A DNA stretch of 20,865 nt from positions 1 through 20,865 of IMG/VR virus record IMGVR_UViG_3300045257_000401. The stretch is one strand, 5' to 3'. Every line of letters begins with the position of its first letter. The stretch's first letter is position 1. Both the position numbers and the translations under genes were made by a program. A model generated the notes under the pieces. It saw only the letters and a list, made by a program, of their open reading frames with translations, ran no database searches and was not told the DNA's origin. Of this stretch, positions 1 through 5,320 are shown in pieces. This DNA comes from a virus.

Positions 1-37
1 CCAGCGCGGGGGCAAATTGGGCGTACTGCTCGGGCAT
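1..37 (-). CDS. 5' fragment of a leftward gene leaving the window
   Basis: An open frame starts at an ATG complementary to 35-37 and runs off the left edge after about 12 codons, beginning MPEQYAQFAPAL. No Shine-Dalgarno is visible. A good sigma-70-type promoter on the same strand (68-95) lies about 30 bases upstream, which is the main reason to believe the gene. A second ATG at 40-42 opens a different frame that reads less like protein. The product cannot be identified from so few residues. Confidence 0.35.
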   Translation of the reverse strand, partial: MPEQYAQFAPAL

Positions 38-67
38 TGCATAAAGGGAGTTAATCTCTATGCCTTA

Positions 68-95
68 ATTTTATCAAGCTGGAAAGCGGCGTCAA
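68..95 (-). promoter_or_regulatory. sigma-70-type promoter, leftward
   Basis: On the minus strand TTGACG (90-95) and TAAAAT (68-73) are separated by 16 bases, close to consensus. Transcription would start near position 61 and read the gene leaving the left edge. Together with the plus-strand extended -10 at 146-154 it makes 38-163 a divergent control region. Confidence 0.55.
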
Positions 96-145
96 ATGGC
101 TTAGGTATGCGAACTTAAAAAAGATATCCACAGGAAAAGTGCGTG

Positions 146-154
146 TGTTATACT
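146..154 (+). promoter_or_regulatory. extended -10 promoter directly before a start codon
   Basis: TGT followed by TATACT (149-154) fits an extended -10 element. The ATG at 164 is only 9 bases further on, so the transcript would begin within a few bases of the start codon and be leaderless or nearly so. No clear -35 is present. A near-match to the DnaA box (ATATCCACA, 124-132) sits just upstream. Confidence 0.5.
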
Positions 155-163
155 CTTCGGTCT

Positions 164-475
164 ATGATCCTCATCAAACAAATCAATGGGCGCTCTTGCC
201 CATTAATCATATGCGATGCCTGCAATGAGCCTATTACCAATATCAAAATGGGTATGGTGCGCTATAAAAGCGGTGGCGGCGACGGCGATATTTCTGAAGT
301 TCAACATTGCCACAAAACCACTTGCGACAAAGCCCTTTCGAATGTCGAGGGTAAACTTTCCTGGCAAGAATTATCACACCATTTGTTTTTCCTGCTAACA
401 AACTCTGGTATGCCTTCAAGCGAGATTGCCGCCGAAGTAAAACGATGGGAAGACTTTCAGTCGATGATGCCATAG
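164..475 (+). CDS. small zinc-finger-like protein, unknown function
   Basis: A 103-residue protein when started at the ATG at 164; a GTG at 143 in the same frame lies inside the promoter, so 164 is preferred. It carries a paired-cysteine motif CDAC (C17, C20) and a second cluster HCHKTTC (H48, C49, H50, C54), which together look like a zinc-binding unit of the kind common in small phage proteins. The C-terminal third is mixed and probably helical. There is no SD; the strong -10 nine bases upstream suggests leaderless translation. It is the first gene of the rightward block. Function unknown; a role in DNA binding or host takeover is only a guess. Confidence 0.65.
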   Translation: MILIKQINGRSCPLIICDACNEPITNIKMGMVRYKSGGGDGDISEVQHCHKTTCDKALSNVEGKLSWQELSHHLFFLLTNSGMPSSEIAAEVKRWEDFQSMMP

Positions 476-571
476 CAGCGACTTTGTTTCCTCCAGATAA
501 TTACTTTCCCACCCCACCTGGAGGTGGCGGAGTTGTCCCGCAGGTTGACGGCAGGGTGTATACTGTCCGTC

Positions 572-1057
572 ATGCGACTTCTACTCTTTCTCATTTTTGC
601 CGCTCAAGTATTTGGGCAGACAACACAGTCCATTAAACTGAAGCTGGACCTTAAAAAGGAGACAGTAATCGAGCAACGGGTGTATAGCCTAATCAGTCGT
701 GAATTACGAGCGCTACACGATATAGACTTTGTTGATGTCGAATATGATGCGGACTTCACTATCTCCATTATTATACTAGAAGACAAAAACAAAGCAGGAG
801 AAGTCATTGGTTTCTCTATGGCACAACTTCTAACAACAACACCAATGCCAATCCGCGTATTCCTCAAAGAAGGTATTGAGAAGGATAAGCTTGCCAGAAT
901 GTATCAGAAAATTCGCGAGGACTACCGACAAATTACTGATTTTGGCTTGAGTGGAGGAAGTCTCGAAGATCTTGAAAAGGAATGTGAAAGAATCATGGCC
1001 CGGTGGGACGCTAAGGTCTTTGATGATAGGCGAAAACTTCTTAAGTTGATAAAATAA
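572..1057 (+). CDS. secreted or periplasmic protein, unknown function
   Basis: A 161-residue protein from the ATG at 572. The frame is open further upstream, but 572 is chosen because the protein then begins with a classic signal peptide: MRLLLFLIFAAQVFGQ, with a hydrophobic core and likely cleavage after the F-G region. The mature part alternates beta segments (IDFVDVEYDADFTISIIIL) and ends in a charged helical tail. A TATACT (559-564) lies 7 bases before the ATG and there is no SD, so translation may be leaderless. One line inside the gene (781-840) is about 38% GC, while virion-gene lines I counted are near 60%, suggesting an acquired accessory gene. The product would act outside the cytoplasm, unusual for an early phage gene; host-envelope modification or superinfection exclusion are guesses. 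Confidence 0.7.
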   Translation: MRLLLFLIFAAQVFGQTTQSIKLKLDLKKETVIEQRVYSLISRELRALHDIDFVDVEYDADFTISIIILEDKNKAGEVIGFSMAQLLTTTPMPIRVFLKEGIEKDKLARMYQKIREDYRQITDFGLSGGSLEDLEKECERIMARWDAKVFDDRRKLLKLIK

Positions 1058-1110
1058 CCACTGCCAACTACGAAACTTCAGGTCTTGCCGTTTATTGCAC
1101 TACCGCTCCT

Positions 1111-1907
1111 TCCCCTTGGCAAACGCCGGGAGGAAAATAAAACTATTACCTTCCTGTTTGAGACTTAGTGCCTTAGCCCCTTGATCCGCTTTCAGCAATT
1201 TCAGTTGCCGGCGCCGGGCCGTCGCGGGTGGAATTCCTAAGATGTCGTCCCACTCCCTTGTGTGCATGCCAAGTCGCCGTTGTTGAAGCGGTCGAACAGA
1301 GCGGCGATTAGACTGCGCGCAAGCAGAGTTCAAACGGATGTTTATTGTGTCCAGTGCGGTTCCGTTAAAGCACTGGATACAGGAAGTTGTACAAACCAAA
1401 AACGCCACGCTAACAATTAGCAGGGCGTTACTGGTTTGTAAGACTTTTGGTTTTGGTACGTGGATGTCATTGGTGTTTTGATTTCAGGGTGATTGGTAGC
1501 TTCTACTCCGGTCCGCCAGAGGCTTGGCCCAAAGCCAAGCATTATAGCGTTCTACGGCGAGCACTTTTCAACCAATCACCCCTTCTCGGCGGCGCTACAG
1601 GGGCTGGCCCCCGGTTTCAGCTATTGCGCCTACGGCCAGGTTTTCCAATTGGTTTGCGCGAATGCCTTCGTCGCAAGGGCGGCGTCCGGCCGGACTCACC
1701 GTCAAGTAGCAGCTTTCACCCCTTCCTGGCGGGGGTTGTATGCTTCCGTGCCACTACCTGCACAATTGGAGCCGGAAGCTACTCACGAGCCAATAAAGAT
1801 GGCTCATGGTGCACCTCCTGGAGGAAATATCCTCGGAAACATTATACGCCACTTGGGCTGGAAAAGTTCGTGGATTTTGGCTTGCGGCTGCCGGCCGTTG
1901 ATCCGGC
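1111..1907 (+). ncRNA. large structured noncoding RNA (ornate-RNA-like), about 800 nt
   Basis: No convincing gene occupies 1058-1916; the stretch is packed with helices. Main pairings: 1111-1114/1128-1131 with 1118-1120/1125-1127; 1195-1198/1205-1208; 1226-1231/1250-1255; 1272-1280/1301-1309; 1313-1316/1323-1326; 1346-1357/1370-1381 (12 bp); 1390-1398/1432-1440 enclosing 1401-1406/1424-1429 and 1409-1412/1418-1421; 1487-1497/1571-1581 (11 bp) enclosing 1522-1528/1534-1540; 1591-1595/1626-1630; 1654-1662/1667-1676; 1684-1695 (palindrome); 1742-1748/1773-1779; 1787-1792/1800-1805; 1821-1825/1830-1834; 1890-1894/1903-1907. Wobbles G1349-U1378, G1273-U1308, U1280-G1301 and G1227-U1254 pair only in a plus-strand transcript. 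Size, complexity and phage setting recall GOLLD and ROOL RNAs, but family membership is not shown. Promoter, exact ends and terminator are not visible. Confidence 0.7.
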
Positions 1908-1916
1908 GACGTGCCC

Positions 1917-2228
1917 TTACCCTTGTTGCTCAGACTTGTACTTCCACTCCATAGCCCACTTCAAAAGCCACTCAATGGCAATTAGCTGGTGCTGATAGGA
2001 GGCCGAGTTTGGATCTTTGGCGGCAATACCTTGTTTAGCTTTAGAGCGAGCCTTTTGCAATTTATCCACAAGCTCCATTTTGAGGGTATTGTTTTCTTTC
2101 CGGGTTTCTTTAATGGACTCCGCGGCGTCGTGACGGAGCAGGTAGGTTTTGATTTGTTTGGCGACAGATTTGTCTACGGCTAGAAATTGATACAGCTCCC
2201 GCCTAATTTGTTCCTTTGTTTCCGGCAT
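1917..2228 (-). CDS. small charged helical protein, unknown function
   Basis: A 103-residue, highly charged, mostly helical protein. A long helix with coiled-coil character runs from about residue 30 to 65 (KETRKENNTLKMELVDKL), and the C-terminal part is rich in W (IEWLLKWAMEWKY). The start at 2228 (MPETKEQ) has AGGG eight bases upstream. An in-frame ATG at 2258 would add ten residues but lies in the loop of the hairpin at 2237-2286. The gene ends just past the last helix of the structured RNA, so the two are convergent. A perfect DnaA-box sequence (2062-2070) sits inside the reading frame. Family not recognised. Confidence 0.65.
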   Translation of the reverse strand: MPETKEQIRRELYQFLAVDKSVAKQIKTYLLRHDAAESIKETRKENNTLKMELVDKLQKARSKAKQGIAAKDPNSASYQHQLIAIEWLLKWAMEWKYKSEQQG

Positions 2229-2230
2229 AT

Positions 2231-2286
2231 AAAAATCCCTATAGTCAGGGGCCAACATTGCATTGGAACTCCCCCCGACTACAGGG
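2231..2286 (-). terminator. terminator-like hairpin just before a start codon
   Basis: Read on the minus strand, 2277-2286 pairs with 2237-2246 (ten positions, one G-U wobble that exists only on this strand) and 2273-2276 pairs with 2248-2251, with one bulged A. The stem is followed by A and five Ts (2231-2235) and then, within a few bases, by the ATG at 2228. It can end transcription from the 2358-2690 gene or act as an attenuator on the next gene. Confidence 0.6.
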
Positions 2287-2357
2287 GTCTTTGTTGCAAT
2301 GTTAAGTTAGTGAGTTCGCTTACGGTGAAGTGTAGCACATTAGCGGAAGTTGTCAAG

Positions 2358-2690
2358 TCAGTTAATAGCAACGATAAAATCTTCTTCGAGCTTCTTGTAA
2401 TCTTTCTCCGTCATTTTGTCCTTGTATTCTCTGTTAAAAATAGCGTTGGCATCTTCCGGTGTCACGCCTAGTTTTTCCATTACTGCTATAATCTTGCACT
2501 CATTTCCAATCTGGAAGACGCGAGCTACACTTCTGGCGCCAGCGTGACGGGCATTGGCTGCAAAAAGTTGCTGCGCAAACCAGAACATCAAAAACCACTT
2601 GATGCTGTGGTCTAAGAGGAGCCACGCTACAACTATTTCAGGAATGAAGTAAAGGAGCGATTTGGCGGCGCGTTTTGTCGAAATCCACAT
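2358..2690 (-). CDS. small membrane protein, unknown function
   Basis: A 110-residue protein with a basic N-terminus (MWISTKRAAK) and a hydrophobic stretch at about residues 11-42 that could form one long or two short membrane segments, followed by a soluble tail (about 55-110) rich in charged residues. The start at 2690 is supported by a promoter-like pair, TTGACT (2721-2726) and TAAACT (2697-2702) 18 bases apart, ending 6 bases before the ATG; with no SD this again suggests a leaderless message. It is transcribed divergently from the early operon at 2848. Family not recognised; a role at the membrane during takeover is possible. Confidence 0.65.
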   Translation of the reverse strand: MWISTKRAAKSLLYFIPEIVVAWLLLDHSIKWFLMFWFAQQLFAANARHAGARSVARVFQIGNECKIIAVMEKLGVTPEDANAIFNREYKDKMTEKDYKKLEEDFIVAIN

Positions 2691-2696
2691 GAGTAG

Positions 2697-2726
2697 AGTT
2701 TAAGTTCCTCGAATGCCCCAAGTCAA
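2697..2726 (-). promoter_or_regulatory. promoter-like pair, leftward
   Basis: TTGACT (2721-2726) and TAAACT (2697-2702) on the minus strand, spacer 18. The -10 ends 6 bases before the ATG at 2690. A perfect DnaA box begins 4 bases beyond the -35. Confidence 0.4.
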
Positions 2727-2729
2727 CCC

Positions 2730-2738
2730 TGTGGATAA
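2730..2738 (-). promoter_or_regulatory. DnaA box, perfect TTATCCACA
   Basis: TGTGGATAA on the plus strand is the exact complement of the consensus DnaA box. It lies in the 157-base divergent gap between a minus-strand gene and the operon containing the SSB-like gene, a sensible place for a replication origin or DnaA-responsive control. Two more perfect copies occur at 2062-2070 and 7016-7024. No iterons or obvious AT-rich unwinding element were found. Confidence 0.4.
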
Positions 2739-2847
2739 CTTTCCGTCAACCACTAAAACCCCAATGTTTGCAGCTATGGACAGTATTTTCGGTTTGCTTC
2801 ATACTTAAGAAAAGGTCGGCAACTTCACAAACCAATCATTAACTTCA

Positions 2848-3273
2848 ATGCAAACCAAGCTTCAACAATTGGCCAAAGAGCTGATTGAGTGTCGGGGTAA
2901 GCTCCAGGAGTTAGAGGAACGGCAAAGGGCCGAACGCGAGCCGTACGAGCTCGCTAATCAGGAAATCCGCAGCCAGCTACTCGGGATAATGAACAAGTCC
3001 GGCGTCCTCTCCACCAGGTACGAAGACTTTGCCATCAGCCGGAAAACCTCCAAGCGGGCGGTCGTGGTGGACGAAAGCAAAGCCATCGCTTATCTCGAAG
3101 CAAACCTCCCCGGCGGCATCCTTAAAACAGTCCATCCCGAAGTGCTAAAGCAGATTGAACGGGGTACTCGCTCGCCCCTGGACGGCGTGTCCGTCGAAAG
3201 CAAGGAGTATGTGTCCATAAGACAGAACAAAGAAACTAACGCCCCGGCCGATGTCGGGACAGAAACCACATAG
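2848..3273 (+). CDS. coiled-coil protein, possibly Gp157/Gam-like
   Basis: A 141-residue protein. Residues 1-45 form a charged coiled coil (LQQLAKELIECRGKLQELEE). The rest is a small alpha/beta region with a pattern I associate with phage Gp157 and Gam-like proteins: a lysine-rich strand (SRKTSKRAVVVDES), a short helix (AIAYLEANLPGG), then VKxxxxEVLKxI-type spacing and a late strand ending VESKEYVSIR. Those families bind DNA ends or inhibit host nucleases; the assignment here is tentative and rests on this pattern and on the position right before an SSB-like gene. The next gene begins just after, or slightly overlapping, its stop, so the two form an operon. Confidence 0.65.
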   Translation: MQTKLQQLAKELIECRGKLQELEERQRAEREPYELANQEIRSQLLGIMNKSGVLSTRYEDFAISRKTSKRAVVVDESKAIAYLEANLPGGILKTVHPEVLKQIERGTRSPLDGVSVESKEYVSIRQNKETNAPADVGTETT

Positions 3274-3277
3274 CCGT

Positions 3278-3931
3278 ATGCCAATATCACCAACCGCCGA
3301 GATGAAGGTGCCGGAAAAGAAAGACTGGCCGCTCATCCCGGAAGATGTCTACCAAGTCGAAATCACCGACATCGCCGAGGACGTGTCAGAATTCAAGGGC
3401 GAGAAAAAGGAAGTCTTCAAGTTTGAGTTCACCCTCATTGAGGACGGCGCCACCTATGGCCGCAAGCTGTGGAAGCGCGGCGTCCGCACCTCGCCCATTC
3501 CCTACAAGAGCGGTAAAAACTCGCTGACGTGGAAGGTCGCCTCGGCAATCGCCAAACACCCGCTGACCGAGGAAGAGGGCAAAGCCTACACCATCGCCAT
3601 GATGAACGCCATGATTGGCAAGCAGCTTCGGGTTACCGTGTCGGTTTCAGAGCCGAAAACGGATGGCAAGCAGTACAACAATATCGACAGCTTCATGATG
3701 GCCAAAAAAGACCTGGCGCCGTTTGACGAGGCCAAAGTGCCGAAGGACAATCTGCCGGCCGCTGCCACAACTGCGGCTGCTCCGGCTCCGGCTGTTCCGG
3801 TCCAACCCTCTAAGCTAGCCCAAACCGTCCATGCCTCCAGCGGCGGCAAGTTCGGCCATTCTGCGGAAGCGCCGGAAGACCCAGCCGAAGTCGAAATGGG
3901 GGAAATAGACCCTGACGACATACCTTTTTGA
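3278..3931 (+). CDS. phage single-stranded DNA-binding protein (SSB-like)
   Basis: About 217 residues from the ATG at 3278, which lies 5 bases after the upstream stop. An in-frame ATG at 3251 would overlap the upstream gene by 23 bases, and another at 3302 is possible. The N-terminal 130 residues are rich in beta strands (VYQVEITDIAEDV, VFKFEFTLIEDG) with basic and aromatic residues, as expected for an OB-fold or DUF2815/DUF669-like domain. A low-complexity Ala/Pro linker follows, and the protein ends in DPDDIPF, the acidic-phenylalanine tip by which SSB proteins recruit partners. This tip is the best evidence for the call. GC is about 60% in the line counted (3541-3600), in contrast to the next gene. 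Confidence 0.8.
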   Translation: MPISPTAEMKVPEKKDWPLIPEDVYQVEITDIAEDVSEFKGEKKEVFKFEFTLIEDGATYGRKLWKRGVRTSPIPYKSGKNSLTWKVASAIAKHPLTEEEGKAYTIAMMNAMIGKQLRVTVSVSEPKTDGKQYNNIDSFMMAKKDLAPFDEAKVPKDNLPAAATTAAAPAPAVPVQPSKLAQTVHASSGGKFGHSAEAPEDPAEVEMGEIDPDDIPF

Positions 3932-3944
3932 CCCATTCTAACAT

Positions 3945-4433
3945 TTGACGACCGTTCTAAAACAACATAGTATTCAGGTAAGACAATTAAACCTGATAAC
4001 AGCAGTGCAAAAACGATGTTTTAAGTGCGGTATAGTCAAGCCAATAAATAGATTTTACATTCATCCGACTACGGCTGATGGTTATCTCAACAAATGTAAA
4101 TTATGCACTCGTACCTATGTACGGGCTAGGTACTATAGTCCCGTCACACGACCTGCCATAATTGCCTACGAATGGAAGAGAGCTAGAGACCCTCTTAGAC
4201 GACAAAAAAGACTCATCTATCAAAGGCACTCGCGCCATAATCACCATGGGAAATATCGCGCCCGAAATAAGGTAAACAACGCAATTCGGGATGGCAGGTT
4301 AGCAAGAAAGCCATGTGAAGTCTGCGGTAGTCAAAAGGTGCAAGCTCATCACAAAGACTATAGGCGATATCTGGACGTAAATTGGCTTTGTAAACTCCAC
4401 CACCTACAGGCAGAATCCAAAACCCCTTTCTAA
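3945..4433 (+). CDS. HNH endonuclease with N-terminal zinc ribbon
   Basis: A 162-codon frame beginning with TTG; the true start may be the GTG at 4005, since the recognisable protein begins only at about residue 22. An N-terminal zinc ribbon (C25, C28, C51, C54) with the phage-type pattern KRCFKCGIVKPINRFY is followed by a basic region rich in R and H. The C-terminal HNH nuclease motif shows CEVCG (C124, C127), the catalytic-type AHHKDY (H135, H136) and WLCKLHH (C149, H152), giving a zinc-held beta-beta-alpha-metal fold. This is the architecture of free-standing phage homing endonucleases. GC in line 4021-4080 is about 38%, against about 60% in the gene before it, consistent with independent arrival. 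No SD is visible at either start. Confidence 0.8.
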   Translation: MTTVLKQHSIQVRQLNLITAVQKRCFKCGIVKPINRFYIHPTTADGYLNKCKLCTRTYVRARYYSPVTRPAIIAYEWKRARDPLRRQKRLIYQRHSRHNHHGKYRARNKVNNAIRDGRLARKPCEVCGSQKVQAHHKDYRRYLDVNWLCKLHHLQAESKTPF

Positions 4434-4443
4434 ATTAAACACA

Positions 4444-4467
4444 CCCGGCTCGGAGGGGGCCGGGCTT
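4444..4467 (+). terminator. terminator-like hairpin after the HNH gene
   Basis: CCCGGC (4444-4449) pairs with GCCGGG (4459-4464) across a 9-base loop, followed by CTTTCCT. The stem is GC-rich but the T run is short, so termination may be partial. It starts 10 bases after the HNH stop codon. Confidence 0.55.
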
Positions 4468-4479
4468 TCCTAAAACCAA

Positions 4480-4887
4480 ATGCCCTTACGTGAAAGAACA
4501 TGCCATACGCGGGGTTGCAAAAACAGCTTTCTGGCCTCGGACGGACGGCGAAAACTTTGCGACGCCTGCCGCCAAAACCGCGATAGGAACGGTTCGCGGA
4601 GACGATATGCGTGGTTATCAAAATCCCCGGCCTGGCGGAAAAAGAAAGCCGAGTGGATGCGCCGTTACAGGCAAGAACACCTGGATGCCATGCGTGCCTA
4701 CGGCGCTGAATGGATGAGGCGATATAGGGCAGGGGAAAAGACCAGAGGTGTTATTCCTCGGCCTGAACGTCAAACGAGACGATATCCCCGTAACGAGGCA
4801 GGTTTGGGCTTTAAGAGGTGCTTTAAATGCGCCTTCTGGTTAAAGGGTGAACAGGTTTGCCCGCGGTGCGGGCAGACAAATAAATAA
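4480..4887 (+). CDS. basic protein with zinc fingers at both ends
   Basis: A 135-residue, strongly basic protein. The N-terminus has C8, C13, C27 and C30 in a zinc-finger layout; the C-terminus has a rubredoxin-like ribbon, CFKC (C114, C117) and CPRC (C127, C130). Between them lies a basic helical stretch with a repeated phrase, AEWMRRYRQE and AEWMRRYRAG, about 25 residues apart. Such proteins usually bind DNA or RNA, and some are relatives of HNH or transposon-associated proteins that lack the nuclease core; no nuclease motif is visible here. The ATG at 4480 is the natural start, 13 bases beyond the terminator-like hairpin. Function not recognised. Confidence 0.7.
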   Translation: MPLRERTCHTRGCKNSFLASDGRRKLCDACRQNRDRNGSRRRYAWLSKSPAWRKKKAEWMRRYRQEHLDAMRAYGAEWMRRYRAGEKTRGVIPRPERQTRRYPRNEAGLGFKRCFKCAFWLKGEQVCPRCGQTNK

Positions 4888-4890
4888 AAG

Positions 4891-4941
4891 AAAGCCGGCT
4901 CGTGAACCCTGTTGGGGCAAGGTTTCGGAGACCGGCTTTTT
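4891..4941 (+). terminator. terminator between convergent genes
   Basis: AAAGCCGG (4891-4898) pairs with CCGGCTTT (4932-4939), extended by AACC/GGTT inside, and is followed by a run of Ts to 4941. On the minus strand the same hairpin is followed by a T-rich stretch (CTTTCTTTTATTT), so it can serve the convergent gene 4949-5320 as well. Confidence 0.8.
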
Positions 4942-4948
4942 GATTTGG

Positions 4949-5320
4949 CTACGCTTTCTTGAGGCCGAACGCTTCCAGCTCTTTGGCCGTGAACGCCTTT
5001 TTGCTTTCGCCCTGGCTGCGGTGTTTCCGGGCGTCGTGGTTTGGCGTGGTTAGGAAGTTGCAAACTGAGCAAGGCTTGGCCGGATCAACCGTGCCGGCGC
5101 CCGCCCTGCTTCCTTTCTTCTTCGGCGACGCTCCGTCTCCCTCCACCAGGCGGTAGGTAAAGCCGATTTCGTTCAATTCCGCTACGGCTTCCTCGGCTTT
5201 CTTTAAGGCTTCGGCTTTGGCGCTTTCCAGAAGTTTGCTTCGCTGTTCGTCCAGCTTCTTTATCTGTTCCAGTACGGTCATCTTCTTCTCCGGTCTCGGG
5301 GATATCGTCTCGTTTGCCAT
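4949..5320 (-). CDS. coiled-coil protein with C-terminal zinc-knuckle-like motif
   Basis: A 123-residue protein. The ATG at 5320 is chosen over an upstream TTG at 5326 because GAGG lies 6 bases before it, a good SD. The first 60 residues form a charged coiled coil (VLEQIKKLDEQRSKLL), then a basic low-complexity linker (SPKKKGSRAGAG), then a C-terminal motif CSVCNFLTTPNHDARKHR with C, C, H, H spacing that could hold zinc, ending KKAFTAKELEAFGLKKA. The layout, an oligomerising helix plus a small basic C-terminal module, recalls nucleoid-associated H-NS-like proteins, but the H-NS DNA-binding sequence is not present, so this is only an analogy. A phage-encoded DNA-binding regulator is a reasonable guess. 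Confidence 0.75.
   Translation of the reverse strand: MANETISPRPEKKMTVLEQIKKLDEQRSKLLESAKAEALKKAEEAVAELNEIGFTYRLVEGDGASPKKKGSRAGAGTVDPAKPCSVCNFLTTPNHDARKHRSQGESKKAFTAKELEAFGLKKA

Follow-up and report, generated by a model that had tools for sequence, protein, structure and literature searches.

A pseudoknotted minus-strand RNA shared by Acidobacteriota phages and soil Acidobacteria chromosomes, a candidate translation-gated dual-function RNA

Positions 1058-1916 of the window (the whole virus record, 20,865 bp) form a helix-rich, gene-free stretch, and the question is which RNA, if any, it encodes. The original prediction was one structured RNA of about 800 nt, read from the plus strand. The helix-rich stretch exists, and an ornate, conserved, phage-borne structured RNA does lie in it; its strand and limits, however, are other than predicted, with a length of about 450 nt and a conserved core of about 356 nt. 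The stems named at the time are present (1346-1357/1370-1381, I3; 1384-1413/1417-1446, I1; 1487-1497/1571-1581, I4), and 1301-1450 is the most stable 150-nt segment in a scan of 1-4950, with z = -6.7 for the plus and -6.2 for the minus strand, a difference by which the strands cannot be told apart from single-sequence stability alone. An 800-nt plus-strand RNA could draw on the good plus-strand folding of this segment and on the stem 1346-1381, which is perfect in plus only. Outside 1250-1500, however, plus-strand folding is ordinary (z +0.8 to -1.4), 1100-1380 has no BLASTN conservation in relatives, and the four G-U wobbles offered as proof of the strand (1349-1378, 1273-1308, 1280-1301 and 1227-1254) all fall outside the conserved element. 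The left half holds, in place of such an RNA, a terminator hairpin and a minus-strand frame at 1267-1100 whose translation, MHTREWDDILGIPPATARRRQLKLLKADQGAKALSLKQEGNSFIFLPAFAKGKER, gives sub-threshold matches to Pfam Xre-like HTH (E 3e-4 and 1e-3). Because this frame looks coding and has that weak match, a gene probably occupies the left part of the RNA as first claimed, and the description of the neighbouring frames as shadows is probably wrong for it; the minus-strand frames 2690-2358 and 2258-1917 look coding as well. With the strand comparison given below also opposed to it, the 800-nt plus-strand RNA is hardly credible. Plus-strand coding in 1447-1995 (an open frame of 182 aa) was considered and rejected, as the frame has no Pfam match and is broken by small indels between relatives.

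A protein search with the SSB-like product of 3251-3931 led to the related phage contigs L002 and L003, and an alignment search after it gave no further contigs; the protein of the neighbouring frame 1917-2258 found nothing. The nucleotide search for homologues recovered L002 and L013 by BLASTN, over 1629-1851 at 72-75% (72% for L002), L013 being a third phage contig reached with a conserved 19-mer. A pattern scan of genomes found a copy in a Bryobacterales MAG (L058). A covariance model built from four sequences (R1) detected members in another five genomes of this order, at E 1e-28 to 1e-5, as well as a degenerate copy in G290. With a model built from eight (R2), a further, more distant genome from the same class, G708, was recovered; R2 scores the R1 members higher partly by construction, four of them being in its build. 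Members occur in seven of 257 genomes of the order, one copy each, and in two of 396 genomes drawn evenly from the phylum, and the family spans Acidobacteriota phages and soil Acidobacteria chromosomes. The full-length members number eight; three are phage-borne, two of these being closely similar. Matches in G289 and G705 (L062, L076) were taken as chance, as were most contigs found with the pattern GGTGAAGTGTAG..GTCAA; the pattern TGCAGGTAGT..GGAAGCA matched 42 viral stretches and was true only for the two already known. Neighbour protein A2 had no match in the genomes, and BLAST of the L013 element against phages and plasmids returned none.

The conserved RNA lies on the minus strand. With the first ~170 nt of eight members aligned by MAFFT, RNAalifold gives the minus (sense) strand -33.4 kcal/mol with a covariation term of -2.87, against -21.4 and -1.34 for the opposite strand, and the z scores relative to column-shuffled alignments are -6.3 for sense and -3.0 for antisense. 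It is this comparison of both strands that places the conserved part, 1482-1846, on the minus strand. The model-fitted alignment A7 holds 63 G-U cells versus 6 A-C cells, a count biased towards sense because the model was built on that strand.

Transcription is predicted to start at about 1837, behind a -10 box at 1846-1841, and to run past the core end at 1482 through a terminator hairpin at 1446-1384, giving an RNA of about 450 nt (Table 1). Relatives have -10-like hexamers at about the same place (TATACT, TACACT, TAGACT, TAGTAT, CATAAT, CATACT or TAAAAT); upstream of the -10 there is no consensus -35 at 17 nt, four relatives have TTGAAC-N19, and the promoter spacing is non-canonical. The conserved ends are constant across members, with P1 just after the -10-like hexamer and CCCTGAAA at the 3' end, and the core measures 345-428 nt in the full-length relatives. 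In the window, L002 and L013 phages the RNA is closed by a terminator-like hairpin, whose 3' side reads GGCGTTTTTGTTTTTG in L013 and identically in L002; in the window copy, some of its U tract is itself paired. L003 lacks the RNA, yet carries the same terminator hairpin (3' side GGGTTTTTGTTTTG) behind a small zinc-ribbon gene; behind the chromosomal copies we found no clear terminator. As part of what we consider the best overall explanation, the RNA is probably a stand-alone unit with its own promoter and, in phages, its own terminator. We do not read it as the leader of one gene, because of the terminator in phages and because no consistent co-oriented gene lies downstream in chromosomes. 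A role in cis, as leader or attenuator for the phage genes downstream, would agree with the minus-strand genes that follow in the phages and with the presence of both a leader-peptide-like ORF and a terminator, but some 300 structured nt separate that ORF from the terminator, and three chromosomal copies face a convergent frame instead, which makes this reading very improbable. At these three (L068 4358, L069 7388 and L071 7738) about 5 nt separate the conserved end of the RNA from the stop codon of the convergent frame, a 70-aa ORF in the case of L069, and such placing in three unrelated places might point to insertion at gene ends.

Table 1. Coordinates in the window of the minus-strand RNA, its signals and helices, and the adjoining small ORF
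Feature	Position	Strand	Remarks
-10 box TATAAT of the RNA's own predicted promoter	1841..1846	-	direct reading; aligned upstream regions
Conserved RNA core, hairpin P1 to CCCTGAAA	1482..1837	-	356 nt
Helix P1, GAGGA/TCCTC	1821..1834	-	4/5 pairs changed on both sides
Helix P2	1774..1819	-	outer GGAGG (Shine-Dalgarno) with CTTCC; variable inner GAGCCA/TGGCTC
Shine-Dalgarno GGAGGTG	1812..1818	-	invariant in 8/8 full-length members
Micro-ORF MSHLYWLVSSFRLQLCR-stop	1754..1807	-	18 residues in the window
P3 5' arm GCAGGUAGUGG	1751..1761	-	includes the micro-ORF's UAG stop
P5 5' arm GCCAGG, within P3	1725..1730	-	pairs with 1635-1640
P3 3' arm	about 1702..1712	-	
Hairpin P4, CGGU-GA-GUCC-GGCC-GGAC-GCCG	1680..1701	-	3 both-side changes; 100% of cells paired
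Hairpin P6, conserved GGCA loop	1653..1677	-	2 pairs changed on both sides
P5 3' arm CCTGGC	1635..1640	-	
Closing stem P7, GGGTGATTGG/CCAATCACCC	1487..1581	-	11-bp stem of the original prediction
Terminator-like hairpin, 3' side GGCGTTTTTGGTTT	1384..1446	-	
Small ORF, 55 aa	1100..1267	-	weak Xre-like HTH match; outside the RNA

The eight full-length members have in common hairpin P1, a hairpin that holds the Shine-Dalgarno (SD) sequence and start codon (P2), two more hairpins, a closing stem, and a long helix (P3) crossed by a covarying long-range helix (P5), which is a pseudoknot because its 5' arm, inside P3, pairs with 1635-1640. P1, P3, P4, P6 and the crossing P5 all covary in the sense strand. 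In alignment A10, made by MAFFT with no model and scored over P1, P2, P3, P4, P6 and P5, 13 of 39 pairs are changed on both sides, versus 6.9 +/- 1.5 in shuffled alignments (0/500 shuffles as high) and 2-6 in slid control versions, and 92.6% of cells are paired; the arms were chosen on the same sequences, a choice that favours the paired fraction more than it does the both-side changes. Covariation across homologues, whose absence was to have counted against the original prediction, is thus present, but on the minus-strand element. The arms of P1 become GGCGA/TCGCC, AGGGA/TCCCT or GAGGG/CCCTC in relatives, those of P5 are GCCAGG/CCTGGC, GTTAGG/CCTAAC (L068) or CTCGGG/CCTGAG according to the member (two pairs changed on both sides), and P7, which closes the 3' domain, is GGGCGAC/GTCGCCC in L070. 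The inner stem of P2 holds the ORF start and is supported by covariation; the nearly invariant outer stem lacks such support because it hardly varies. P3/P5 take the place of helices 3 and 4 in an initial automatic model, two helices with no both-side changes. The variable region of L070, upstream of the CCCTGAAA end, contains a tRNA T-arm-like stretch, GGGTTCGATTCCC, at which ARAGORN calls no tRNA.

Every full-length member (8/8) has GGAGGTG followed, after 4-5 nt, by ATG, GTG or TTG and by an open frame of 17-18 codons that runs to C-R-stop (UAG). The family peptide pattern is M-x-K-[LI]-T-S-W-L-V-P-x-F-R-[LFY]-[RQH]-[LMV]-C-R-stop, and the peptides of the seven members other than the window are MGQASNWLVKRFRLRLCR, MGQASNWLVRRFRLRLCR, MNKLTAYLVKRFRYRLCR, MAKITSWLVPIFRLRMCR, MNQLTSWLVPSFRLRLCR, MTKLTTWLVPNFRLQLCR and MSKITSWILASFRFHVCR. 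This is the sole frame free of stops in all eight, and its BLOSUM score of 3.26, versus 2.86 in column shuffles, was matched in 0/1000 shuffles; in the same test frame +1 reaches 1/1000, though its level is much lower. Variation is spread almost evenly over codon positions 1, 2 and 3 (11, 8 and 10 of 17), and this absence of a third-position signal may be due to RNA pairing across these nucleotides. The frame is shortened in L077 and lost or changed in the degenerate L072 and L073. Read-through of the UAG was considered and rejected, as the downstream frames diverge by 1-nt indels. If the RNA were purely structural and non-coding, with a role like that of GOLLD or ROOL, the SD and the ORF would be by-products of helix conservation, and the pairing of GGAGG with CTTCC in P2, the conservation that continues beyond the stop codon and the lack of third-position bias would all be in keeping with this. 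Such an RNA would not, however, be expected to vary its start among ATG, GTG and TTG only, with an almost constant spacing from the SD, to keep the frame open in 8/8 despite a 3-nt indel when other frames hold stops, or to confine residue changes to conservative ones (L/Y/F, L/M/V) though these codons lie in the P2-P3 joint. We consider the purely structural reading rather unlikely, and the micro-ORF is likely translated.

On balance we favour, as somewhat probable, a stand-alone, pseudoknotted, translation-gated dual-function RNA of about 450 nt, from an apparently undescribed Acidobacteriota family. The sequence comparisons show the family, its strand and fold, the covariation of the pseudoknot and the conservation of SD, start and frame; that the RNA is transcribed, translated and switched, and what role it has, is inferred. 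The SD and start codon in the second hairpin would begin the 17-18-codon ORF, with its UAG within P3. A ribosome loading on the SD would open P2 and make the peptide, and on reaching the stop it would block P3, and hence the P3/P5 pseudoknot; when ribosomes are absent, the RNA would fold into its pseudoknotted body with the SD held in P2. The 5' arm of P3 includes the UAG, so that P3 could not form while a ribosome terminates there, and translation of the peptide would compete with the pseudoknot. More speculatively, given that the pseudoknotted helix includes the stop codon, one may imagine a new class of RNA in which the ribosome on a micro-ORF decides whether the crossing helix forms, here as a mobile translation-sensing RNA in Acidobacteriota phage-host conflict. 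Among dual-function RNAs, RNAIII/delta-hemolysin and SgrS/SgrT are stand-alone and structured and contain a short translated ORF. The new RNA is like them in being a stand-alone structured RNA with a short, here putatively translated, ORF, but its stop codon lies in a pseudoknot-crossed helix and its body is more conserved than the first half of the peptide; we know of no sequence relation to either. New classes of large structured RNA are, to our knowledge, rare, most of the large structured RNAs known from phages have no known role, and few RNAs are known from the order that carries the chromosomal copies. An SD-led ORF of 17-18 codons with its stop in a pseudoknotted helix is a small, testable feature, and with toxin and defence genes adjoining several chromosomal copies, both biochemistry and role are directly testable.

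The L068 copy follows a DUF433/DUF5615 pair, the L069 copy follows TIR and Mrr-like genes, the L071 copy adjoins a PIN-domain gene (weak), and L072, the remnant of a prophage, has a gene resembling the one at 5565-6254 of L002. These TIR, Mrr, PIN and DUF433/DUF5615 neighbours, together with the presence of the RNA in phages, suggest that it acts in conflicts between phage and host or between prophages, the examples being too few for a statistic. Behind its first copy, L072 has a second, partial one at 2860-2960, which covers the 5' part of the RNA with SD, start and SSWLV. Hok-type type I toxin mRNAs have a very short ORF, keep their SD in structure and measure about 400 nt, all of which recurs here. 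An RNA of that kind would encode a small toxin in its 17-18 aa peptide, and its fold would block translation until processing or loss of the antisense; the SD held in a hairpin, the very short ORF, the stand-alone unit and the addiction-like contexts (phages, and beside TA genes) would suit it. The peptide, however, is cationic, whereas most type I toxins are hydrophobic single helices; no antisense partner was seen, a simple scan (a weak method) finding no plus-strand sigma-70-like site over the RNA; and conservation is strongest around and after the end of the ORF, where a toxin mRNA does not need it. We regard the toxin mRNA as a credible, if unlikely, reading.

Rfam release 15 gave 0 matches above the gathering threshold on either strand of the window, including the models for GOLLD, ROOL, OLE, HEARO, raiA and group I/II introns named in the original prediction. 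Gathering matches in the relatives were confined to a tRNA in L001, L004, L010 and L013, with none in L058 and L068-L073, and E-value searches returned CRISPR-DR10 and Six3os1_3 only, which were taken as chance. GOLLD and ROOL occur in phages and have no known function, and GOLLD expression goes up during lysis (PMC12286853). The preferred dual-function RNA is like them a large structured RNA of phages and prophages, but it has no Rfam match, possesses an SD-led micro-ORF, is found in other hosts, and is about half the size of GOLLD. It apparently represents a new family, the Solibacter-1 and Soil-1 motifs lying outside the comparison. Both are candidate non-coding RNAs, one from Solibacter (Bryobacterales) and one from soil, listed with no Rfam accession and, for Solibacter-1, for one species only (PMC2864571, Table 1). 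As the text of that article gives no consensus for them, these two motifs are the main doubt on the novelty of the family.

These phages carry other elements as well. A second minus-strand RNA occurs at 2236-2356 (-) of the window, at 5435-5569 in L002, ~4425-4555 in L003 and ~5225-5350 in L013. Its layout is a TTGACA-16-TACACT promoter, crossing arms A-B-A'-B' (a pseudoknot or attenuator) and a T run, a topology kept in the four phages with letters almost wholly different in L003 and L013. A repeat of ~50 bp, 82-92% identical, is found at 62-111 of the window, 4250-4298 of L002 and 3248-3302 of L003, and has the look of a promoter on the minus strand (TTGACG-16-TAAAAT), with a leftward gene set behind it; because that gene set is missing from the window, the window may be a partial genome. 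A 340-nt intergenic module, not found in the window, is about 90% identical between L013 (6380-6060, -) and L003 (3850-4170). It lies between a terminator hairpin and a leftward gene, and has strong plus-orientation folds (z -4.8 in L003).
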